Part shown: positions 4,333 through 23,426 of the stretch, piece after piece
Layout: each line of letters opens with the position of its first letter
Numbering within the stretch: position 1 is the first letter of the stretch
From: a virus
Reading direction: 5' to 3' (one strand)
IMG/VR virus record: IMGVR_UViG_3300024999_000323
Span: 1-27,803 of that record
Length of the DNA stretch: 27,803 nt
The notes under the pieces: model-generated
The model's input: only the letters and a program-made list of their open reading frames with translations
Databases searched by the model: none
Told to the model about the DNA's origin: nothing
Program-made: the position numbers and the translations under genes

Positions 4333-4340
4333 TAATTTTT

Positions 4341-4425
4341 GTGGCTAGGTAGTGCAGACCGAAAAGGAGTTTCCCTACTCCCTGCCACTTATATAATTTA
4401 AAGGGTATTATTATATGAAGGGAGA
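4341..4425 (+). promoter_or_regulatory. Structured leader of the EDxHD endonuclease gene
   Basis: GTGGC (4341-4345) pairs with GCCAC (4384-4388), AGG (4347-4349) with CCT (4381-4383), and TAG (4350-4352) with CTA (4375-4377). An alternative small hairpin joins GGAG (4366-4369) to CTCC (4378-4381). CTCCCT (4378-4383) is also exactly complementary to AGGGAG (4419-4424), the ribosome binding site of the gene starting at 4433. The leader can therefore fold in exclusive ways, one of which blocks translation. The 7-mers TAGGTAG (4346-4352) and CCCTACT (4373-4379) recur in the same order in the leader at 15456-15541. Confidence 0.5.
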
Positions 4426-4432
4426 TATAAAA

Positions 4433-5935
4433 ATGAAAAAGACAGATTTTAACATAGTAAAACAATACATAGAAGAATTAGGTTATGAATTAATTAGCAA
4501 AGAATATTTAAATAACTCACAAAAATTAATTTTAAAAGACGCTATTGGATATTATTATGTAATTCGTTGGGCAGATTTACTTAGTGGATATAAACCTAGT
4601 TTTGTACATAAATCTAATCCTTATTCTATTAATAATATTAAATTATTTCTACATATTAATAATTCAAATTTAACATTATTATCAGAAGTGTATGAAGGTG
4701 ATGAGATTGATTTAAAATTAATTGATACTGAAGGATATTACTATTCATCTCCTTGGTGTGCTTTAAAAGGACTTAGTAGAAATATTTTTGTTGCTAAATT
4801 TAATAAATATTCTAATAAAAATATTATATTATTTTTAGATAGAAATAATATTGATTTAGAATTAGTAAGTAATTTCAAAGATAGTCATAGTAAATTAACA
4901 CTTAAAGATAAATATGGTTATTTATATAGTATATCTTGGAATAATTTATATAAAGGTAAAACTCCACATTTTGTTGAGAAAAATAATCCTTATTCTATAC
5001 ATAATATTAAAATATTTTTAAAACTTAATAATTATGATTTTACCTTATTATCAGAAAAATATGAAGGTGAAGATTTTACTTTAATTTTATGTGATAACGA
5101 AGGATATTACTATTCACAAACTTGGCGTACATTATTAAAACTTACTCGTCAATTATTTGTTAGTGGTAATAATAAATATTCTACACAAAACATTCAATTA
5201 TTTTTAGATAAGAACAACACAGGTTTAAAATTAGTTAATCAATATAAAAGTAATAAAGATAAGTTAATTTTAATAGATAGTAATGGATATTTATATGCAC
5301 AATCATGGGGAGATACACAATATTTAAGAATGCCTAGTTTAGCATATAAAGGTAATCCTTATTCTATTAGAAATATCAATCTTTGGTGTAAGTTAAATAA
5401 TAAACCATACAAATTATTAAGTACAAAATATATAAAAAATAATAAATTATTATTATGGAAATGTTTAAATGATGGTTGTGGAAAAGAATTTAAAATGTGT
5501 TGGGGCAATATATTTCAAGGTCAAAATTGTTCATATTGTCATGAATCAAAAGGCGAAAGAAAAATAAATACATGGTTGAAACAAGAATTTTTACCATATG
5601 ATAAACAATATAAATTTAATAATTTAAAAGGTGTTGGTGGAAGATTATTAAAATTTGATTCTGCTGTATTTTGGGATAAAGAAATGACTAAATTAAGATT
5701 ATTAATTGAATATGATGGTAAACAACATTTTGAATGGATTGAAGGATGGATGACTAAAAAACAATTTGAAACTTTACAAATCCATGATCAACTTAAAAAT
5801 GAATATTGTAAGAAACATAATATAAAATTAATTCGTATTCCCTATTGGGATTTTAATAATATAGAAATAATTCTTACTAAAGAATTAAATATTATATCAT
5901 ATCAATTACAAAACGCATTACAAAACGTATCATAA
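4433..5935 (+). CDS. Free-standing EDxHD (Vsr-like) homing endonuclease with DNA-binding repeats
   Basis: The C-terminal third resembles the EDxHD homing endonucleases (type enzyme I-Bth0305I, Vsr fold). Glu375 (KGERK), Asp409 (KFDS), His432 (KQHFE) and Asp452 (HDQLK) lie in the expected order. A zinc ribbon precedes it (Cys344, Cys349, Cys366, Cys369). The first 340 residues are five to six tandem repeats of about 61 residues, each starting near YS-x-x-N-I-x-L-F-L. Alternate repeats are most alike, which suggests an older two-repeat unit of about 123 residues. They probably read an extended DNA target. The start at 4433 is preferred over the in-frame ATG at 4415 because AAGGGAGA (4418-4425) is correctly spaced before 4433. 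The gene sits between intact portal and downstream genes, so it is intergenic and not inside an intron. Endonuclease class is fairly sure; target unknown. Confidence 0.75.
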   Translation: MKKTDFNIVKQYIEELGYELISKEYLNNSQKLILKDAIGYYYVIRWADLLSGYKPSFVHKSNPYSINNIKLFLHINNSNLTLLSEVYEGDEIDLKLIDTEGYYYSSPWCALKGLSRNIFVAKFNKYSNKNIILFLDRNNIDLELVSNFKDSHSKLTLKDKYGYLYSISWNNLYKGKTPHFVEKNNPYSIHNIKIFLKLNNYDFTLLSEKYEGEDFTLILCDNEGYYYSQTWRTLLKLTRQLFVSGNNKYSTQNIQLFLDKNNTGLKLVNQYKSNKDKLILIDSNGYLYAQSWGDTQYLRMPSLAYKGNPYSIRNINLWCKLNNKPYKLLSTKYIKNNKLLLWKCLNDGCGKEFKMCWGNIFQGQNCSYCHESKGERKINTWLKQEFLPYDKQYKFNNLKGVGGRLLKFDSAVFWDKEMTKLRLLIEYDGKQHFEWIEGWMTKKQFETLQIHDQLKNEYCKKHNIKLIRIPYWDFNNIEIILTKELNIISYQLQNALQNVS

Positions 5936-9463: not shown

Positions 9464-9484
9464 TTAAAATTAATTAGAATTGAG

Positions 9485-10309
9485 ATGATTATATTAGAAA
9501 CAATTAATTTACAAATCATTACAAGTGATATGAAATATCCAGGAATCTATTTAATTATAAATTTAGTAAATAATAAATTTTATGTTGGCAGTGCTAAAAA
9601 TATATGGTCACGTAAATTAGGGCATCTTAGGGATTTAAAAAATAATAAACATAAAAATATTTATTTACAGAATTCTTATAATAAATATGGTTCACAATAT
9701 TTCATAGTAATCTTATTAGAAAAAGTAGAATCTGAGAATGATTTAGTTAAACGTGAACAATATTGGATAGATACATTAGATGCTACCAATAAAGAAATTG
9801 CTTATAATATATGTCCTACTGCTGAAAGTACATTAGGTCGTCATCATTCAGAAGAAACTAAAATAAAAATGAGTAAATCAATGAAAGGCATTAAACGTAC
9901 TGATGAAGGTAAAAGAAATATAAGTTTATCTCAAAGCAAACCTATAATTCAATGCACAATTGATGGTAGATATATTAAAGAATGGGAAAGTGCTGTTTAT
10001 GTTTCCAAGGCATTAAATTTATCTCAAACTAATATTTCTAGAGCATGTCTTCATAATAATAATTATGCACATAATTATTTATGGTTTTTTAAATCTGAGT
10101 ATGAACAAAAAGATTTTGATGTAAACAAATTCATACCTAGAATTGGTAAGAAGATAAATCAATATACTTTAGATGGTGAATTAATTAAAACATGGGACAC
10201 ATACAAAGATATAAAAATTGATTCTGAAATCAGAACGACTTATCTTCTTGGATGTTGTGAAGGTACATATAAATCTCACAAAGGTTTCGTATGGAAATAT
10301 GCATCATAA
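9485..10309 (+). CDS. Free-standing GIY-YIG homing endonuclease with NUMOD domains
   Basis: The nuclease domain spans about residues 17-110: GIY at 20-22, YVG at 33-35, a conserved basic and His stretch (RKLGHL, 43-48), catalytic Glu91 (REQYW) and Asn108 (YNIC). A NUMOD3-like segment follows (LGRHHSEETK, about 117-148). Two NUMOD1-like helix-turn-helix units, about 153-200 and 222-270, should bind DNA. The ATG at 9485 has only a weak GAG site; an in-frame ATG at 9530 (residue 16, directly before the GIY domain) is an alternative. The gene sits just behind the capsid terminator, so without its own promoter it should be poorly transcribed. Both neighbours are intact, so it is not inside an intron. 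Confidence 0.85.
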   Translation: MIILETINLQIITSDMKYPGIYLIINLVNNKFYVGSAKNIWSRKLGHLRDLKNNKHKNIYLQNSYNKYGSQYFIVILLEKVESENDLVKREQYWIDTLDATNKEIAYNICPTAESTLGRHHSEETKIKMSKSMKGIKRTDEGKRNISLSQSKPIIQCTIDGRYIKEWESAVYVSKALNLSQTNISRACLHNNNYAHNYLWFFKSEYEQKDFDVNKFIPRIGKKINQYTLDGELIKTWDTYKDIKIDSEIRTTYLLGCCEGTYKSHKGFVWKYAS

Positions 10310-10374
10310 TATCAACAAATCAACTAAATAAAATAACTAAATAAATTTAAAATAAAAAAGGATGATCTATTTTT

Positions 10375-11362: not shown

Positions 11363-11554
11363 ATGAGTGATTTTAAGTTTATAAAAGAACAAGCTGCAAT
11401 TGTTAATATTACAGAAACAGATGGTGTTGCAGCCGTTGGTGCTAATCCAACTAAAGCTGAATATGATGTTGTTGTAACTTTAGCAAATGCTAATAAAGCT
11501 AAAATAAATGATATATTAGCAAAACTAAGACTTGCTAATATTATAATTGAATAA
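11363..11554 (+). CDS. Small protein, 63 aa, unrecognised
   Basis: A short frame with an excellent ribosome binding site (AAAGGAGG, 11346-11353) and an ATG at 11363. The product is soluble, with a beta-rich first half and an Ala/Lys-rich helix near the end (ANANKAKINDILAKL). It is tightly packed between neck genes, which argues for a real gene. No function is recognised; a small virion component or a chaperone is possible. Confidence 0.65.
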   Translation: MSDFKFIKEQAAIVNITETDGVAAVGANPTKAEYDVVVTLANANKAKINDILAKLRLANIIIE

Positions 11555-11583
11555 TAATATAAATTAAAGGAGGAATATTAATT

Positions 11584-11853
11584 ATGGCAAATGTAACTGG
11601 ATTTGTTACTGTATCAGCTACGGCTACCACTACTCAGGCTTCATCTACAGTCAATTGTAAAGAAATTAAATTAATTAAAAATGATGGTGCTGTTGATTTA
11701 ACTATAGGTATTGATAATATTATAACTGATGGTAATACAATTACTCTTAAAGCTGGTGAAAGTTTAGAAAATTTCCCTGTTTATTGTAAAGTATTATATT
11801 ATAAATCTGCTTCTAGTACTGCTGCATTTAGGTTTATTGGAATAAGAGAATAA
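11584..11853 (+). CDS. Small beta-rich virion protein
   Basis: This 89-residue protein is almost all beta strand, with Thr/Ser/Val-rich stretches (GFVTVSATATTTQASS) and no charged coiled coil. It resembles small jelly-roll or beta-sandwich proteins on phage heads and tails, and a similar pattern recurs within the 186-residue protein at 18312 (ISVSTTSTIVLPANSNRK). A strong AAAGGAGG site precedes the ATG. A hairpin terminator follows. A decoration or spike role is inferred from composition and position. Confidence 0.55.
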   Translation: MANVTGFVTVSATATTTQASSTVNCKEIKLIKNDGAVDLTIGIDNIITDGNTITLKAGESLENFPVYCKVLYYKSASSTAAFRFIGIRE

Positions 11854-11875
11854 CTTTTTAAAAGTAAAATAATAT

Positions 11876-11907
11876 AATAAGTGAGAGTAAAATATCTCTC
11901 ACTTATT
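11876..11907 (+). terminator. Intergenic hairpin, possible terminator
   Basis: AATAAGTGAGAG (11876-11887) and CTCTCACTTATT (11896-11907) form a perfect 12-bp stem with an 8-nt loop. There is no clean T run behind it, so termination may be partial, leaving read-through into the next neck genes. Confidence 0.55.
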
Positions 11908-11945
11908 AAAATAATTTGTTAGAATAATTTAAAGGAGGTTGATAT

Positions 11946-13112
11946 ATTATAACTTGGTGGACAGATTATCAGGAAAGAAGAGGACAAGATCGTAAATCAC
12001 TATATGTAAACAATATGAAAAATACAATATCAACTGAATTTAAAAATTCTACAAGTTATAATTTAGTAAAAATTAATAATGTTGATAGAGATGTTCGTAT
12101 TGTTGAAGAAAGTTCAATTATAAAAAATCCAAATAAAAAGAGATTATTATGCTATCCAGATGAGACTATAAGTATCGGAGATATTATTTTATGGGATAGT
12201 GAAAATTGGATATGTACTGAAACTGATACTACTTCTCAGGTATCAGATGTTGGGATAATTAGCAAATCCAACAACACTCTAACTATACACAAAAACAACA
12301 CACCATATCAAATCCCTTGTATAATAAATTCAAATATAAATCTTGACACTGACCAAACTACTTATATAGAAACTCCATCAACTACTATTGTATTAAAAAT
12401 TCCTAATACAGAAATCACAAGACAAATTAAACGTGGAGAGATTTATAAACTAGGATTGCAGAATTATGAGATTAAAGATATCAATGATATAGTTGAACCT
12501 GGAATTCTTAGATTAGAGATTATGTATAGTCAAGAGGTACAAGAAGAACATGTTTATACTTTAGAAATCACTAATGGAATTTCGGTAAATATTCAAGAAT
12601 CTACTACTCTGCAACTTAATATTAATGTGTTTGACAATGGAATTTTATTATCACCTCTCCCCTTTTTAACTTTTACAAGTAGTGATGAAACTATTTGTAC
12701 AGTTAATTCTAGTGGTTTGGTAACTTCATTAAATAATATTGATAATTGTGATATTACTGTTAGTTTAAGTAGTGATAGTAGTATTTTTAAGAATATTAAT
12801 ATAAATGTAATTGAAGATGTGCAGAATAATATAACTTATACCCTTACATCTACAAGTTTACCTGATAATGAAATTATTATAACACAAATAAAAACATATA
12901 CAATTCAAAAATATAATAATGGTATTCCTATTGAGCAGAATTTTAGTTTTAATGTTGTTGGGGATAGTTTAAGTTATCAATTGATAATTGTTGATGGGAA
13001 TAATTGTAGTGTTAAATGTTTAAAAAGTGGTAGTGTTATTACTTTAAAAGCGATTGATGATAATAATGGTGAAATTGTTGTGAAGGATATTAGATTGAAG
13101 AATTTATTTTGA
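11946..13112 (+). CDS. Neck/tail protein with Ig-like domain, apparent ATT start
   Basis: The first standard ATG is at 12015, but the frame is open upstream to a perfect AAAGGAGGTTGAT (11931-11943), and the codons between read as protein beginning near TWWTDYQERRGQDRK. The start is therefore probably ATT at 11946 or ATA at 11949, giving about 388 residues. The first 190 or so residues, with NPNKKRLLCYPDE and WICTETD, resemble a phage neck protein type that I recall with the same WWT-x-YQ N-terminus. Residues 205-290 form a bacterial Ig-like (BIG2) unit (SSDETICTVNSSGLVTSL), a fold often added to virion proteins to bind cell-surface sugars, and a second beta domain follows. The terminal codon is followed by tightly linked tail genes. 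Confidence 0.65.
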   Translation: MITWWTDYQERRGQDRKSLYVNNMKNTISTEFKNSTSYNLVKINNVDRDVRIVEESSIIKNPNKKRLLCYPDETISIGDIILWDSENWICTETDTTSQVSDVGIISKSNNTLTIHKNNTPYQIPCIINSNINLDTDQTTYIETPSTTIVLKIPNTEITRQIKRGEIYKLGLQNYEIKDINDIVEPGILRLEIMYSQEVQEEHVYTLEITNGISVNIQESTTLQLNINVFDNGILLSPLPFLTFTSSDETICTVNSSGLVTSLNNIDNCDITVSLSSDSSIFKNININVIEDVQNNITYTLTSTSLPDNEIIITQIKTYTIQKYNNGIPIEQNFSFNVVGDSLSYQLIIVDGNNCSVKCLKSGSVITLKAIDDNNGEIVVKDIRLKNLF

Positions 13113-13145
13113 TTTTTTTAAGAGTAAAGTAAAGGTTGTGAAATA

Positions 13146-13625
13146 ATGGGTCAGTTTGCTCAGTTAACAAATTATAAAAATAACATTATCTATAAATTAA
13201 TATCTAATGAAAATTTACTTAAAGCATTGGTAATTAATCCTGAAGATTTCTTAAATCATAATTTACCAAGTGGTTTTAATCCTGCCAGTTTAATACATTC
13301 GCAAATATTTCCTTATCAATATGCTATAGATATCCAAGATACACCGTTGAGTTATATAACAATGTCATTTGGTAATTATAAGTATATTAATAATTCATTT
13401 AAATCTGGTTTATTAAATATTTATATTTTTTCTCATACTTCATTAATTAAAACAGATTATGGTCTTCGTTACGATTACATACTTGATCAAGTCGATTCAA
13501 TGTTTAATAAAAAAAAAGATGTTGGTTCATTTAATTTAGAGTTAAATACAGGTGGTGATTTTAAAGTAAATGATGATTATTTTGGTTGTGTAGTATCTTA
13601 TAAATTTATTGATTTTCAAATTTAA
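13146..13625 (+). CDS. Probable tail terminator / tail completion protein
   Basis: The 159-residue product has a length and position typical of tail-terminator proteins, which cap the tail tube where it meets the neck. The middle and end contain motifs such as YITMSFGNYKYI, LNIYIFSHTSLIKTDYGLR and DYILDQVDSMF that fit the alternating strand and helix layout of that family. It starts at ATG 13146 after AAAGGTTGTGA and its stop is just before the next gene's site. The assignment is from layout and gene order, not from a specific catalytic motif. Confidence 0.55.
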   Translation: MGQFAQLTNYKNNIIYKLISNENLLKALVINPEDFLNHNLPSGFNPASLIHSQIFPYQYAIDIQDTPLSYITMSFGNYKYINNSFKSGLLNIYIFSHTSLIKTDYGLRYDYILDQVDSMFNKKKDVGSFNLELNTGGDFKVNDDYFGCVVSYKFIDFQI

Positions 13626-13638
13626 GGTTGTGATTAAT

Positions 13639-14358
13639 ATGATTTTAAAAGATGATCTTGAATTATTATTATTAAGTGGTATGCCAATAGATTTAAATTT
13701 TGGTAAATTATACCCATTAAAATTAATAGATATAGTTAAATTAGGATATAGTAAATATAATTATTATATTTCTTTATTATTAATTGACAAATCAAATTTA
13801 CAAAACAAAGAAGATGATTTAAATGATATTACTAATTTTGAAGTAATATATGAAATTTGTAATTTTAACGAACAATTTAAAAAAAATTATTTTAATATGT
13901 TGGAATTATTCTCAAAAGAAACTGTTCAATTATGGAATGGTTTTTTTTATTTTGGAGAATTAAAAGAGAATAGAATAATTAATAAAAATAATTTTGATGA
14001 GATTGTTAGATTATTAAAAGAAATAAATTGTATGATAAATAAAGAAGAAACTGAATTTAATCCAGCAAATGAAAAAGCAAGAGAAATTGCAGAAAGAATT
14101 AAAAGAGCCAGAGAAAAAATTAATAAAGTAAAATCAAAAAGTGGAGAAAATTTAAGTTTAAGTGATTTAATATCTGCTTTTGCTTTTTACAATAAAAACA
14201 CTGATTTAAATAGTATTTTTGAAATGACTATTTATCAGTTTAATAATCAATTTCAACGTATGCAGTTAGTTAATAATTATGAAATTAGTATTCAAAGTTT
14301 ATTACATGGTGCTGATCCAAAGAAAGTTGAAATTAAAAATTTTATCACAAAATTATAA
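13639..14358 (+). CDS. Unrecognised tail-region protein, 239 aa
   Basis: ATG 13639 is preferred over upstream in-frame codons because AAGGTTGTGATT (13624-13635) lies just before it. The protein opens with a hydrophobic stretch (ELLLLSGMPIDL), has a charged helix rich in Arg, Lys and Glu (about 147-170, AREIAERIKRAREKINK), and ends with a pattern (QFQRMQLVNNYEISIQSLLHGADPKKVE) seen at the ends of several phage assembly proteins, where a helix is followed by a GA-x-PK turn. This suggests a structural or assembly-chaperone role for the tail tube encoded next. No precise family is recognised. Confidence 0.55.
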   Translation: MILKDDLELLLLSGMPIDLNFGKLYPLKLIDIVKLGYSKYNYYISLLLIDKSNLQNKEDDLNDITNFEVIYEICNFNEQFKKNYFNMLELFSKETVQLWNGFFYFGELKENRIINKNNFDEIVRLLKEINCMINKEETEFNPANEKAREIAERIKRAREKINKVKSKSGENLSLSDLISAFAFYNKNTDLNSIFEMTIYQFNNQFQRMQLVNNYEISIQSLLHGADPKKVEIKNFITKL

Positions 14359-14379: not shown

Positions 14380-15153
14380 ATGGCAAGATTTGGTACTAGG
14401 GAAATATCTAATGTTGTTTTTAAAGAAATTGCTACTGGTAAACCTGCGCTTTATTTGGAGAGCTTGAAAACTAGTTCAACTGAGGTTACTGCGGATGCTT
14501 CGTACGCTAGAGGTGGGGCAGGTAATCCCAAGCGTTTAATGTGGGAATCAAATAAAGAAGTTATGTATAATATGCAAGATAGTTTAATTTCACCTGAAAG
14601 TCTTGCGATGTTAGCTGGTACTACTGTTGCTACTGGAGTAGTAAAAGTACATAAAAAAGAAGTATTAACTTTAAATAGTTCAAAACAAGTAACTTTAGAT
14701 GAAACTCCAGTAATTGCTACTGCTACACCTATGTTTGTTTTTATTACTGTAAATGGTGATGATATTGGCATAACAGTTCCTTCTAATGTTACTAATGGTT
14801 ATACATTAGCTACTGATCAACTTACTTTTGCTGGAACAGTAAGTTCGCATTTATTTGCTGAAGGTGATAAAGTAATTGTAGATTATTATTATGATTCTGC
14901 CGCTACTGCTAAAGAAATTGTAATTGAATCTGGTAAATTTGCTGGTTACTATAAGATTGAGGCAGATACACTTTGGAGACGGGAGACTGATGGAGTTGAC
15001 CTTCCGGCACGGTTTACTATGCCTAAGATTAAGATTGCAAGTTCATTTACTATTGAAAATGCATCTGAAGGTGATCCTTCGGTATTTGATTTTAAATGTG
15101 AGGCATTTCCAAATGCATCTAATCAGATGGTTATTATTGATATTATAGAATAA
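14380..15153 (+). CDS. Probable tail tube (major tail) protein
   Basis: This 257-residue, beta-rich protein has a strong AAGGAGG site and relatively GC-rich codons, signs of high expression. It has the order expected for a tube subunit, with an N-terminal region (LYLESLKTSSTEVTA, YARGGAGNPKR), a central variable insertion (about 85-170) and a conserved-looking C-terminal beta region with DGVDLPARFTMPKIKIAS and EGDPSVFDFKCEAFP. I recall similar proteins in large Firmicute phages as abundant tail components. It could alternatively be a baseplate hub-like protein; no sheath protein is visible, so tail type (contractile or not) is undecided. Confidence 0.65.
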   Translation: MARFGTREISNVVFKEIATGKPALYLESLKTSSTEVTADASYARGGAGNPKRLMWESNKEVMYNMQDSLISPESLAMLAGTTVATGVVKVHKKEVLTLNSSKQVTLDETPVIATATPMFVFITVNGDDIGITVPSNVTNGYTLATDQLTFAGTVSSHLFAEGDKVIVDYYYDSAATAKEIVIESGKFAGYYKIEADTLWRRETDGVDLPARFTMPKIKIASSFTIENASEGDPSVFDFKCEAFPNASNQMVIIDIIE

Positions 15154-15405: not shown

Positions 15406-15422
15406 GAAATAAAAATAAAATA

Positions 15423-15451
15423 TTGACAGAATCATAAAATAAATGTATAAT
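15423..15451 (+). promoter_or_regulatory. Consensus sigma-70/sigma-A promoter
   Basis: TTGACA (15423-15428) and TATAAT (15446-15451) are both perfect and are separated by the ideal 17 nt. Transcription should start near 15458, at the first bases of the leader hairpin. This is the best promoter in the window and points straight at the large endonuclease gene at 15548, which would give that gene independent, host-polymerase-driven expression. Confidence 0.9.
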
Positions 15452-15455
15452 ACAT

Positions 15456-15541
15456 ATAGGGATAGGTAGGAGTAATTACCCTACTGATAAGAGCCTCACA
15501 TCTTCCCTATTTATAATTTTTGTGAGGAAGAAAAGTGAGGT
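15456..15541 (+). promoter_or_regulatory. Structured leader that can hide the endonuclease ribosome binding site
   Basis: ATAGGGA (15456-15462) pairs with TCCCTAT (15504-15510) and encloses the hairpin GTAGG/CCTAC (15466-15470, 15480-15484). A rival fold pairs CCTCAC (15494-15499) with GTGAGG (15535-15540), the ribosome binding site, and CTTCC (15502-15506) with GGAAG (15526-15530). A second GTGAGG at 15522-15527 offers a further partner. The two folds share 15504-15506, so they compete. The shared 7-mers TAGGTAG and CCCTACT link this leader to the one at 4341-4425. This could be a sensor, a timing device or a simple translational brake. Confidence 0.6.
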
Positions 15542-15547
15542 AATAAA

Positions 15548-18019
15548 ATGTTAATAACAAAAGAATTAATGGTAAAATGGAATCCAACTACTAGAAAATA
15601 CTATGAGGATTTAGGACATGAATATACTAAACACAATGATGAATTTTTAATCCCTATAGAACATTTACATCATGGTTCTAATACATACATAGAATTTCAA
15701 TGTGATGAATGTAATGAGATTGAAAGTAGAATATATCGAGATTATGTTTTATTAAAAAATAAATATAATAAAGATATATGTGGCATATGTCTTAATAAAT
15801 TAAATATGAAAAATAGAAGTTCAAAAGCAAAAACAAAAGAAGATTTTGGATATTATACTAATCATGAGAATAGAAAATATGAATTAGATAAATATTTAAA
15901 AAAGTATAATGAATTATCAAATATGATTGACAATACAGAAGGTAAAAGATTGTATGATAATTTTCATAGTCATAAAGATGATATTTATGATACTGCAATG
16001 GAATTAGGTTATAAAATAGAAGATATTTGTAAATCATTACCTAAAAATTATTATATCAAGTATCCTGAAATATTAAAAGAAAAATTATTAATATCCATAG
16101 AAGAAAATAAAAGATTCCCTAAAAGTAAAGAAATAGAAAAAATATTACATGTAAGTAATAAGTTTATTAGTAACTTTGGTGGTATTAATGAATTTAAAAA
16201 ATTGTTAGGATATGATGATAGTAAAGATTTAATAGATCTTCGTGGAGACTATAACAAATCTTTAGGAGAATTAATTTGTGCGAATTATTTTTGTTCCCAA
16301 GGATTAAAAGACAAATATAAAAGAGAACAATATCCATTCAGCAAAGAAAATAGATATTTTAGGTCTGATTTTACTTTTTACTTAGAAAATAATAAAGAAT
16401 TACATATTGAAGTATGGGGATTTAAAAAGTCAGAAATTAGTTCTGAAAGAGCAAAAGAATATCATAAAGTAAGAAGTATAAAAGAAAATTTATACCAAAA
16501 ATATTCAAATGATATTATATTAATTGGTATTGATTATGAAATATTTGACTTAAAATATGATGAAATACAAAAGTATTTATATAATTTAATTTCACCATAC
16601 ATTAATTTAAAATTTAAAGATGTATCATATAAAAAATTATTATCTCCATCCCTTATTAGTGATGATGAAATATTTAATGGTATTATGGAAATTAGTTCTG
16701 ATGGTAAAACATTCCCTACAACAATTGAATTATCTTCATATAATTCTTGTTTATATAGTCAAATATTAAAACGTGGTTATTCATATAATGAATTTGCTAA
16801 TAAATATAATGTTAAAACAAAATTAGATAAAACTAATTGGACAAAGAAATTAATATTTAAGTATTTTGATAATATTTTAAAAGATGGGAAAATAATCAAC
16901 AAACAATCATTAAATGAAGAATATAGTGGTTTATCTGAAGCAACCGAAAAATTTGGATACATGACAAAATTAAAATTAGAATATTTTATAAAATTTAATA
17001 TTATACCTAATCAAGAATTAAATTGGGTAATTAATTTAGCAAATAATACAACAAAAACAACATCAATTTTTTCTAAAGTAGAAGTAAATAAAGCAAGAAT
17101 ATTATTAGATAAAATATATCCTAATATAAATAATAATATTTGTTGCAAATCTTGTGGTAGAGAATTTGTTCAATATCATATTTATGAGTTATATTGTAAA
17201 GAATGTAGTGATAATATTTCTAATGGAAAATCAAAATATACAAAATCATTATATACTGAAACTGAATACAATAATAATTTTATTATTAAAGCAATAAAAC
17301 CATATTTATTAACTAGTAAAGGATTTAATAGTGTATCTGATATTAAAATACAATCTTATAGAAATTATTTTAATATGAAATGGATAGATGTTATAAAGAA
17401 ATATAATAGATTTGATGATTTATATGGTTATATTATTAATGAATTTAAAAATTATTGTAAGATAAACACTAAAAATATACATAGATTTGCAAATAATCAT
17501 GATTATATAACTTATGATATTCTTACTGGTATAGGATTAGATAATATTTATAAAGATGTGGGAATAGTTAAACAGAGATATGCAGAAGAAGATTATAAAA
17601 ATAATTTTTTAACTATAATTGATAATCTTGGATATATACCAATATACAAAGAATTTGTTGATAATACTAAAATAAATATTGTTTCTTATTCTAATAAATT
17701 TAACATACATAAAAATATATATGATGAAATTGTTAAAATGTATTCTTCTGAAAGTGATTATGAAGATTATATGAAACGTAAAAAAGAACATAAATCAAAT
17801 ATTGGCAAAGCAACAGGTAAATTAGCAAGAATTCTTAGTGATGAATATTTACAAAAAGAATTTACTGATACATTTGATAATTATTTTGCACTACATAACA
17901 AATATCCTTCTAGTAAAGTATTTAGTTCAATATCTAATCATGATAGTAGTGTTTATAGGAAAAGATATAAAAAATCATGGAGTGAAATTTGTGAAATGTA
18001 TGGTTATTGTAGTAGTTAA
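15548..18019 (+). CDS. Large PD-(D/E)XK-like endonuclease with zinc fingers and many helical repeats
   Basis: This 823-residue protein combines a zinc-finger-like knuckle near the N-terminus (Cys52, Cys55, Cys78, Cys81), a nuclease core at about 232-335 with Glu241 (LGE), Asp274 (RSDF) and Glu288 (IEVWG; Trp replaces the usual Lys), and a second knuckle (Cys533, Cys536, Cys550, Cys553). About seven helical units surround the core, for example 175-221 (RFPKSKEIEKILHVS...), 374-420, 435-485, 575-620, 683-732 and 770-821. Their form, a helix, a G/F-x-x-P/P-S-type turn, a second helix and a W or F-x-x-L/I close, matches the homing-endonuclease-associated repeat. The protein probably cuts DNA and reads a long site. 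It sits between intact tail genes with its own promoter and leader. Whether the variant E-x-W core is active is open. Confidence 0.7.
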   Translation: MLITKELMVKWNPTTRKYYEDLGHEYTKHNDEFLIPIEHLHHGSNTYIEFQCDECNEIESRIYRDYVLLKNKYNKDICGICLNKLNMKNRSSKAKTKEDFGYYTNHENRKYELDKYLKKYNELSNMIDNTEGKRLYDNFHSHKDDIYDTAMELGYKIEDICKSLPKNYYIKYPEILKEKLLISIEENKRFPKSKEIEKILHVSNKFISNFGGINEFKKLLGYDDSKDLIDLRGDYNKSLGELICANYFCSQGLKDKYKREQYPFSKENRYFRSDFTFYLENNKELHIEVWGFKKSEISSERAKEYHKVRSIKENLYQKYSNDIILIGIDYEIFDLKYDEIQKYLYNLISPYINLKFKDVSYKKLLSPSLISDDEIFNGIMEISSDGKTFPTTIELSSYNSCLYSQILKRGYSYNEFANKYNVKTKLDKTNWTKKLIFKYFDNILKDGKIINKQSLNEEYSGLSEATEKFGYMTKLKLEYFIKFNIIPNQELNWVINLANNTTKTTSIFSKVEVNKARILLDKIYPNINNNICCKSCGREFVQYHIYELYCKECSDNISNGKSKYTKSLYTETEYNNNFIIKAIKPYLLTSKGFNSVSDIKIQSYRNYFNMKWIDVIKKYNRFDDLYGYIINEFKNYCKINTKNIHRFANNHDYITYDILTGIGLDNIYKDVGIVKQRYAEEDYKNNFLTIIDNLGYIPIYKEFVDNTKINIVSYSNKFNIHKNIYDEIVKMYSSESDYEDYMKRKKEHKSNIGKATGKLARILSDEYLQKEFTDTFDNYFALHNKYPSSKVFSSISNHDSSVYRKRYKKSWSEICEMYGYCSS

Positions 18020-18037
18020 CTAACTAATAAATTAGGG

Positions 18038-21872: not shown

Positions 21873-21888
21873 AATTAAATATGGTTCT
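21873..21888 (+). repeat. Left copy of a 16-bp direct repeat
   Basis: AATTAAATATGGTTCT begins 12 nt after the tail fibre stop and recurs exactly at 23556-23571, where it overlaps the last codon of the S74 remnant. The two copies bracket the GIY-YIG gene and the remnant. It may record a duplication of sequence downstream of two alternative fibre tips. Confidence 0.7.
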
Positions 21889-21922
21889 CTTTTGAGGTTG
21901 CAAACTTATAAGATGTAAAACG

Positions 21923-21948
21923 AAGAGATGTGCTGTAACACATCTCTT
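21923..21948 (+). terminator. Hairpin between tail fibre and GIY-YIG gene
   Basis: AAGAGATGTG (21923-21932) and CACATCTCTT (21939-21948) form a perfect 10-bp stem with loop CTGTAA. Only a short T run follows (TTTA), so it may terminate incompletely or act as a processing site. Confidence 0.55.
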
Positions 21949-21992
21949 TATCCATTTATAAAACTTTTTTACAGAAAGGTGTATGATAAAAA

Positions 21993-23426
21993 ATGAGTAA
22001 ATACAAATATAAAATATCTACGGATAAAAACCCAACAGATTATAAAATATATTTAGCAACAAGTCCAAGTGGAAAACAATATGTTGGTATGACAACACAA
22101 AAAATAGAAGAAAGAATAAGACAGCACAATAATACGTCGCTTCAAAATAAGAAAAATGCTTTTTCTAATGCCATAAGAAAATATGAAATAAATAATATAA
22201 ATTTTAAGGTTATTGACTACGCAAATTCAATAGAAGAATTAAAAGAGTTAGAAAAATATTATATTAGAAAATATGATACATATGAAAATGGTTATAACTG
22301 CACGTTGGGTGGAGAAGGCACTAATGGATTTAAAATGTCTAAAGAACAAAAAGCAAAAATAAGTGAAAACATCACGAAATATTTTGAAGACCCAAATAAT
22401 AGAGAAGCACAATCTCAACGAATTAAACAGTATTTTCAAAGTGAAGAAAATAAAATAAAAAATTCAAATAGTGTTATACAAGCATATATAGACAATCCAA
22501 AGTTAAGAGAAAATCTATCAAAAATAAAGATAAAACACTTTGAAAATAAAAAGAATAGAGAAAAAATGTCAAATATAAAAAAACAATTATATATTGATAA
22601 TCCAGAGTTAAAAATAGTTCAATCAAATAGAATGAAAAATTTCTATATCAATGAAGAAAACAGGAAAAATATATCTAAAAAAAGAAAAGAATTTTGTCAA
22701 GATAGGAGCAATAGAGAATTATTATCTTTATCTCATGGTATAAATAATTTTTTCGTGTATGATAAAAATGGAAATTATATAGGAGAATGGCACTCTATTG
22801 CATTATGTGCTGAAGATTTAAAAATAAATCGTCAAGGTATCAGTAAGTGTCTAAAAGGCAAAAGTATTTTTGTTAAAGATTATGTTTTTATAAATAAGGA
22901 TAATTTCTCATTAGAAAAATTATCCTTATTAACTGGTAAAGCGAATGAGTCAAGATTTAGTAAAAAAGAATTTAGTGTATATACAAAGTCAATAAATCCT
23001 GAGTTTGTTAACAAATGGCAAAATCAAATAGAATGTGCTAGAATATTAAATTTACAAAGTCAAAATATAAATAATTGTTTGCTTGGCAAAAGACTTTTTC
23101 ATAAAGATTATATATTTGTTTACACAACAGAAAATGAAGAAGAAGAAGAATTAAATAAAATTGTCAATCTTATATATGATAAAAATAAATTTATAAACAT
23201 GTATAATAAACAAACTAAGGAATTAATAAATACTTTTCAAACTGTCAAAGATATTGCTAATAACTATCAACTTGACGATTCAAGTGTTCGTAAATGTTTA
23301 CGAGGTGAAAAACAATATTATAAAAATTATGAGTTTTATTATATTGAAAATGATATATATTTAAAGGAAAATAAAAACAATTTACAAGAAGTAGTATCTC
23401 AAAATGCCACTTCTTTTTCTATTTAA
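21993..23426 (+). CDS. Second GIY-YIG homing endonuclease with repeated NUMOD domains
   Basis: The nuclease domain is at about residues 16-105, with KIY at 18-20, YVG at 30-32, Arg41 (EERIRQH), Glu87 (LEKYY) and Asn102 (YNCTLGG). Residues 115-245 hold several NUMOD3-like basic units. Three NUMOD1-like helix-turn-helix units follow (FFVYDKNGNYIGEW..., FSVYTKSINPEF..., FINMYNKQTKEL...), for DNA recognition. The site AAAGGTG precedes ATG 21993. The last 15 or so codons (NLQEVVSQNATSFSI) resemble an S74 chaperone segment more than a NUMOD domain, and after two TAA stops the same frame continues into an S74-type fibre end. The gene may therefore have been inserted in, or fused at its 3' end to, an old fibre-tip gene. 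Confidence 0.85.
   Translation: MSKYKYKISTDKNPTDYKIYLATSPSGKQYVGMTTQKIEERIRQHNNTSLQNKKNAFSNAIRKYEINNINFKVIDYANSIEELKELEKYYIRKYDTYENGYNCTLGGEGTNGFKMSKEQKAKISENITKYFEDPNNREAQSQRIKQYFQSEENKIKNSNSVIQAYIDNPKLRENLSKIKIKHFENKKNREKMSNIKKQLYIDNPELKIVQSNRMKNFYINEENRKNISKKRKEFCQDRSNRELLSLSHGINNFFVYDKNGNYIGEWHSIALCAEDLKINRQGISKCLKGKSIFVKDYVFINKDNFSLEKLSLLTGKANESRFSKKEFSVYTKSINPEFVNKWQNQIECARILNLQSQNINNCLLGKRLFHKDYIFVYTTENEEEEELNKIVNLIYDKNKFINMYNKQTKELINTFQTVKDIANNYQLDDSSVRKCLRGEKQYYKNYEFYYIENDIYLKENKNNLQEVVSQNATSFSI

Follow-up and report, generated by a model that had tools for sequence, protein, structure and literature searches.

The open reading frame at positions 15548-18019 of the plus strand, which is intact and specifies 823 amino acids, almost certainly encodes a large multi-part DNA-cutting enzyme, namely a free-standing homing endonuclease that copies itself between phage genomes. 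The window analyzed here is an entire IMG/VR virus record of 27,803 bp. It covers the head-tail region of a large phage, and the tail protein encoded at 14380-15153 is similar to its counterparts in Lactococcus, Bacillus, Enterococcus and Clostridioides phages. In our main reading, to which we give a probability of roughly 0.8, a free-standing homing endonuclease from an unnamed PD-(D/E)XK family is encoded by the gene, which is carried with a promoter and a leader RNA in an intergenic cassette just upstream of a tail-fibre gene; the repeats and zinc modules would bind DNA, the core would cut it, and the leader would limit translation. The fold, the invariant residues, the selection, the empty or alternatively filled sites and the covariation of the leader were computed. 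From these, we infer that the protein binds and cuts DNA and homes, and that its translation is controlled.

To gather relatives, viral contigs were searched with profiles of the nuclease core. Proteins of 450-570 amino acids were recovered from L013, L016, L018, L021, L028, L029 and G013, and most core relatives have this length. The ORF is real and, as the first-pass annotation had stated, unusually large. Full-length relatives were found in L002 and L015, the latter being a further intact long form of 826 amino acids. Among the relatives, the long form is common only to L002, L003 and L015, all from one metagenome group. The relative in L010 had been considered as C-terminally truncated; this idea was dropped, because short forms of about 500 amino acids are of the usual length. 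No significant match to the 823-aa protein was detected in Pfam, NCBIfam or the PDB sequences. The match to phage protein families was limited to the first ~124 residues (phrog_5104), and relatives in isolate phages were found only for the zinc-ribbon part, over about 80-150 residues. For the core, no relative was detected by tblastn in 50,697 phage genomes, nor among bacterial genomes with the patterns tried.

The promoter, the leader and the ORF together form an inferred mobile cassette at 15410-18028 (plus strand, approximate bounds), with a small tail-region ORF on one side and the tail-fibre gene on the other. In the related phage contig L009, the tail-fibre gene and the right flank are as in the window, and only 240 bp separate them from the preceding small ORF. 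This is the empty site. The gene is thus free-standing, being an ORF of its own between conserved phage genes that is absent from L009. Since the upstream gene differs in L009, the left junction is approximate at the base level. In the siblings L006 and L007 (79-85% DNA identity), the cassette site is occupied by a different nuclease of 385 amino acids. The nucleases at this site in L006 (8173-9330) and L008 (8141-9301) are EYDGGGH-type enzymes, and the zinc ribbon at their N-terminus is related to that of the 823-aa protein. Because the same intergenic site is filled by a different nuclease in L006 and L008, it is a hot spot. In L010, the site holds a 38%-identical relative whose N-terminus is frameshifted. 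The cassette itself is common to the window, L002, L003 and L004 at 88-95% identity, with different upstream genes; between phages with unrelated upstream flanks, its identity is 88-90%. In L002, L003 and L004, the identity starts sharply near the promoter. A frameshift at L003:6498-6501 splits the nuclease gene of that contig after residue 166. Elsewhere in the window, a GIY-YIG homing gene at 9485-10309 is absent from L006 and L007, where the flanks join across 9484-10324 to give a clean empty site. Neighbouring ORFs of the window phage are homing-type genes too. Beside the tail-fibre region of L008, an ORF of 726 amino acids (11509-13689) consists of a short recurring Q-x-x-R-x-I motif.

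These allele patterns bear on the question whether the protein is primarily a resident phage nuclease acting against competitors or host DNA, that is, an exclusion or defence enzyme. The cores of relatives match the candidate-defence profiles PDC-S69 and HEAT_CxxC_PDDEXK of PADLOC, and intact copies are under purifying selection. However, the 823-aa protein of the window was itself unmatched by PADLOC. Homing genes typically show such a mixture of empty, alternatively filled and decayed alleles at a single intergenic site, as well as moves from one set of flanks to an unrelated one, and the neighbouring ORFs are of the homing type as well. We therefore regard a primary role in exclusion or defence as unlikely.

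The PD-(D/E)XK core lies at 16223-16627 (plus strand; residues 226-360) and contains E241, D274, the E288-x-W290 motif and K312. In 11 aligned sequences, S238, E241, R259-E260-Q261, D274, E288, W290, Y305, K312, L315 and Y316 did not vary, and E241, D274, E288 and K312 were unchanged in relatives down to about 32% identity. W290 is kept in all relatives except the more distant paralogues; the G013 member and L010 carry EVWA in place of EVWG. The lysine of the usual (D/E)-x-K motif is absent and W290 stands at its position, whereas the invariant K312 sits in the helix after the E-x-W strand. By analogy, K312 is probably a migrated lysine that replaces the usual one; such sites are already known in the COG4636 PD-(D/E)XK nucleases (PMC551604). 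No invariant H-D pair, as in the E-D-H-D motif of the EDxHD nucleases, was observed among the core residues. In two cousins, L028:104-1060 and L038:1385-3076, the HNH_repeat units are clear, and the core, which is related, reads E-Y-A-G or E-Y-C-G, not E-V-W-G.

The window gene is under purifying selection, with a dN/dS of 0.23-0.25 overall and 0.25 against L015. Few parts of the protein are more constrained than the core (0.07 against L002 and 0.17 against L015). Since the core residues are unchanged in the relatives and the gene is under purifying selection, E-x-W is a family-wide signature and not a sign of decay. The altered active site proposed in the first-pass annotation is thus correct in that the third residue is non-canonical; it is better described as a family-wide variant in which the lysine has probably migrated to K312. 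The C-terminal region of R4-R6 also showed a dN/dS of 0.17 against L015, and the extra 290 C-terminal residues are therefore kept by selection. An inactive nuclease that now serves as a DNA-binding regulator, for example of the adjacent fibre gene, might explain both the missing E-x-K lysine and the large size of the DNA-binding part. The invariance of E241, D274, E288 and K312 and the strong constraint on the core argue against it, and we give this idea even less credence than a defence role.

To model the fold, residues 168-424 were predicted with an alignment of nine relatives (pLDDT 78.6, pTM 0.69). The modelled core has an alpha-beta-beta-alpha-beta arrangement, with D274 and E288 on adjacent strands. 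Its neighbours in VIA-align were McrC, XisH, VRR_NUC, Bax1, a tRNA-splicing endonuclease, TnsA, Can2 and DdmD; the Z values are themselves moderate (4.7-6.1), nearly all of the top rows are PD-(D/E)XK proteins, and the absence of a family from this list does not exclude that family. In BFVD, a library of viral models, the matches included VSR endonucleases and an intron VSR homing endonuclease. No match below E 0.001 was found by Foldseek against the PDB. The L028 core matched the HEAT_CxxC_PDDEXK profile of PADLOC at E 4e-8. The predicted fold, its nuclease neighbours and this profile match bear out the PD-(D/E)XK-like core with E-x-W that had been read from the sequence. The family, unnamed until now, is one of phage PD-(D/E)XK nucleases. 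The model of the whole protein was poor (pLDDT 44.6) and unusable for the arrangement of the DNA-binding parts.

The N-terminal zinc-ribbon domain (15548-15832, plus strand; residues 1-95) contains Cys 52, 55, 78 and 81. This domain is common to other phage nucleases (phrog_5104, and phrog_12131 in relatives). A second zinc knuckle lies at 17141-17206 (plus strand; residues 532-553) and gave a zinc_ribbon_6 match of E 0.006 in L003. Both of the previously noted knuckles were confirmed as CxxC pairs, the second being formed by Cys 532 or 533, 536, 550 and 553.

The count of about seven homing-endonuclease-associated repeats was overstated. In the profile-profile comparison, R4 (17246-17413; residues 567-622) and R6 (17573-17752; residues 676-735) were clearly related (E 3e-5). 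R7 (17834-18010; residues 763-821) is a probable HNH_repeat unit, clear in the relative L003, where a divergent copy stands instead. Matches for R4-R7 and R6-R7 were marginal (E 0.002-0.01), as were those between R1 (16058-16213; residues 171-222) and R2 (16655-16807; residues 370-420) at E 0.008, and between R1 and the repeat-like R3 (16835-16981; residues 430-478), itself weak, at E 0.002. R5 (17411-17563; residues 622-672) matched none of the other units convincingly, and its status as a repeat is unsupported. For residues 104-156, the only match was a short one of 20 residues to R1. All of these units are on the plus strand. The 26-bit cut-off of PF18780, the homing endonuclease associated repeat, was reached only by R7 of L003 (26.6 bits). 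Other units in the relatives were weak (E 0.02-0.05, including R1 of L010 at 0.047 and R2 of L018 at 0.024) and stayed below the cut-off in the other EVW members scanned, and no unit of the window protein itself scored. In the cousins, PF18780 is strong, with 81 bits and five stretches for the L038 protein and 30.6 bits for L028:104-1057.

At L003:8290-8410 (about residues 757-800), some 45 residues matching R7 are replaced by a divergent version. Across this stretch, the DNA identity between L003 and the window changes from 0.97 to 0.67 and back to 1.0, and the surrounding part of the gene is about 95% identical. This replacement suggests that the repeats, as DNA-binding modules, are exchanged. 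The fold search, the invariant residues and the purifying selection on the C-terminal extension agree with the earlier view of a modular DNA reader around the core, as predicted from sequence and model. An undescribed DNA-targeting architecture can be upheld at the level of the family; the parts are all of known kinds.

A sigma-70-type promoter, TTGACA-17-TATAAT, is located at 15423-15451 on the plus strand. It matches the consensus at all 12 positions, and no other exact site occurs in the window, where 0.07 would be expected on each strand, so that it deserves its earlier description as the best promoter. It is also exact, and in the same place, in five relatives (L002, L003, L004, L006 and L010). 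As to the claim that the gene is expressed independently, transcription of its own is plausible, and a leader that the first-pass annotation missed suggests control at translation. Transcription should begin at the first helix of this leader, which we call the class A leader RNA (15456-15540, plus strand). P1 (15456-15461/15505-15510) encloses P2 (15466-15470/15480-15484) and P3 (15489-15492/15501-15504). The P3 loop, CCTCACA (15494-15500), can pair with TGTGAGG at 15521-15527, just upstream of a second GTGAGG (15535-15540) that is the probable Shine-Dalgarno sequence.

The same plan with different bases was found in L006, L010, L016 and L029. The kissing pair is kept as TTCCGAT/ATCGGAA in L010, as TCCTGAA/TTCAGGA in L006 and as TTATCCTAG/CTAGGATAA in L016. 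When the kissing strands of all leader classes were compared, own pairs gave 15.4 against 8.8 for swapped partners (0 of 300 permutations). Judged from the sequence, these results suggest that the leader RNA controls translation of the nuclease.

A second class of leaders, class B, lacks a promoter and precedes several other members of the family. Its DNA pattern was searched for regardless of genes, and 30 stretches, not all with the full structure, were obtained. Those with the full structure lie 58-70 nt upstream of nuclease-type ORFs, with two kinds of exception that look broken: L040 without an ORF, and L043, L046 and L062 with an ORF of 34 amino acids. The L040 leader (4453-4571; 74.5 bits), which no nuclease ORF follows, is possibly a relic. 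In the window, a class B leader at 21879-21994 (94.8 bits, E 5.5e-16) lies directly upstream of a GIY-YIG ORF (21993-23426), whose nuclease type is unrelated to that of the 823-aa protein. Class B leaders show strong covariation. In an alignment fitted to the structure, and thus leaning towards it, 98.9% of the cells were paired and 20 of the 22 pairs had changed on both sides (0 of 500 shuffles); in slid controls, the pairing fell to 33-57%. A first MAFFT alignment had mis-registered P3 and the kissing strands, and was replaced by the own-versus-swapped test and the model-fitted alignment. By eye, a UCUC/GGAGA hairpin that covers the Shine-Dalgarno sequence can also be formed by the strand 3′ of the class B kissing strand. 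Class B leaders were absent from four isolate phages carrying the N-terminal domain, and were not found in bacterial genomes with a narrow pattern.

The P1-P2-P3 plan is found in leaders ahead of phage nuclease genes that belong to five or more catalytic types. According to motifs read from the sequence and, in part, PHROG matches, the ORFs behind them are EVW, EYDGxGH and zinc-array EFQGxQH nucleases, GIY-YIG enzymes (window 21993 and L061) and an HNH-like one (L063). Neither class was found in Rfam 15. The leader, a type missing from the public RNA catalogue, is a more novel feature than the protein architecture. An int-alpA RNA (RF02996) was detected at 4338-4405 of the window (43.2 bits; cut-off 35.8), directly upstream of an HNH/homing-type ORF (4415-5935), and another at L002:1085-1155, upstream of a short zinc-ribbon-like ORF. 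Like the class A and B leaders, int-alpA has a P1 that encloses P2 and P3, its loop can pair with a 3′ strand, and it precedes nuclease-type ORFs here. It differs in sequence, and its model finds neither class; the class A leader was not found even at E 10. On balance, we favour the view that at least five unrelated types of homing nuclease share one transferable P1-P2-P3 leader, with int-alpA as an outlying member, in which the P3 loop kisses a strand at the Shine-Dalgarno sequence, and which sets the timing or amount of the nuclease and moves with the cassettes. A leader acting in trans with the nuclease, as a guide or in a ribonucleoprotein, would fit the presence of leader and nuclease gene together in nearly all cases (on a basis of about 20 distinct leaders), but it is the least credible of the alternatives and very improbable, since leaders of one class are found ahead of no fewer than five unrelated nuclease types, the strand that covaries is located at the Shine-Dalgarno sequence or overlaps it, and no part like a target-derived guide was seen in an unsystematic look.

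For the homing endonuclease with a cis-acting leader, the following course can be proposed. It would begin with the zinc ribbons and helical repeats binding a long target in a co-infecting phage whose allele lacks the cassette. This target would be cut by the core (E241/D274/E288), where K312 takes the place of the usual E-x-K lysine, and recombination repair would then copy the cassette into the cut allele. Kissing between P3 and the strand next to the Shine-Dalgarno sequence would limit translation of the nuclease.

Several known systems resemble parts of this one. T4-type phages keep their homing endonucleases switched off until late infection by means of hairpins in which the ribosome binding site is hidden (PMC2988022). 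The T4 seg and mob genes (PMC2988022), like the present cassette, are intergenic, are present or absent between related phages and lie beside conserved genes; in contrast, their catalytic domains are GIY-YIG or HNH. As in the present case, the leaders of segB, mobE and I-TevI fold over the ribosome binding site or close to it, and seg43(25) has a hairpin upstream of it. However, the T4-type leaders are simple gene-specific hairpins, whereas one P1-P2-P3 kissing plan extends across unrelated genes here. By analogy, the most economical reading is that the leader would do the same job as the T4-type hairpins by means of a kissing loop. The EDxHD/VSR-like I-Bth0305I (PMC3943268) shares with the 823-aa protein a PD-(D/E)XK-related core, an extended multi-domain DNA-binding region and a phage host, and VSR-type proteins are among the best fold matches of our core. 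The present family differs in having no conserved H-D pair, and in its E-D-ExW-K signature, zinc ribbon and HNH-type repeats. COG4636 (PMC551604), likened here by description, also has a third-motif lysine moved in sequence and consists of proliferating selfish genes; its domain make-up and hosts are different.

Our analysis adds to the phage homing enzymes an unnamed catalytic family that is marked by its E-D-ExW-K signature and by a repeat array whose units are apparently exchangeable, and the family offers new long-target DNA readers. If the leader does follow homing genes whatever their nuclease type, it would be a rare example of selfish genes that are unrelated and yet have a regulatory RNA part in common, and a sequence handle for finding homing genes. 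To the question of how a dangerous nuclease is restrained by phages and homing genes, it further provides an answer that can be tested.
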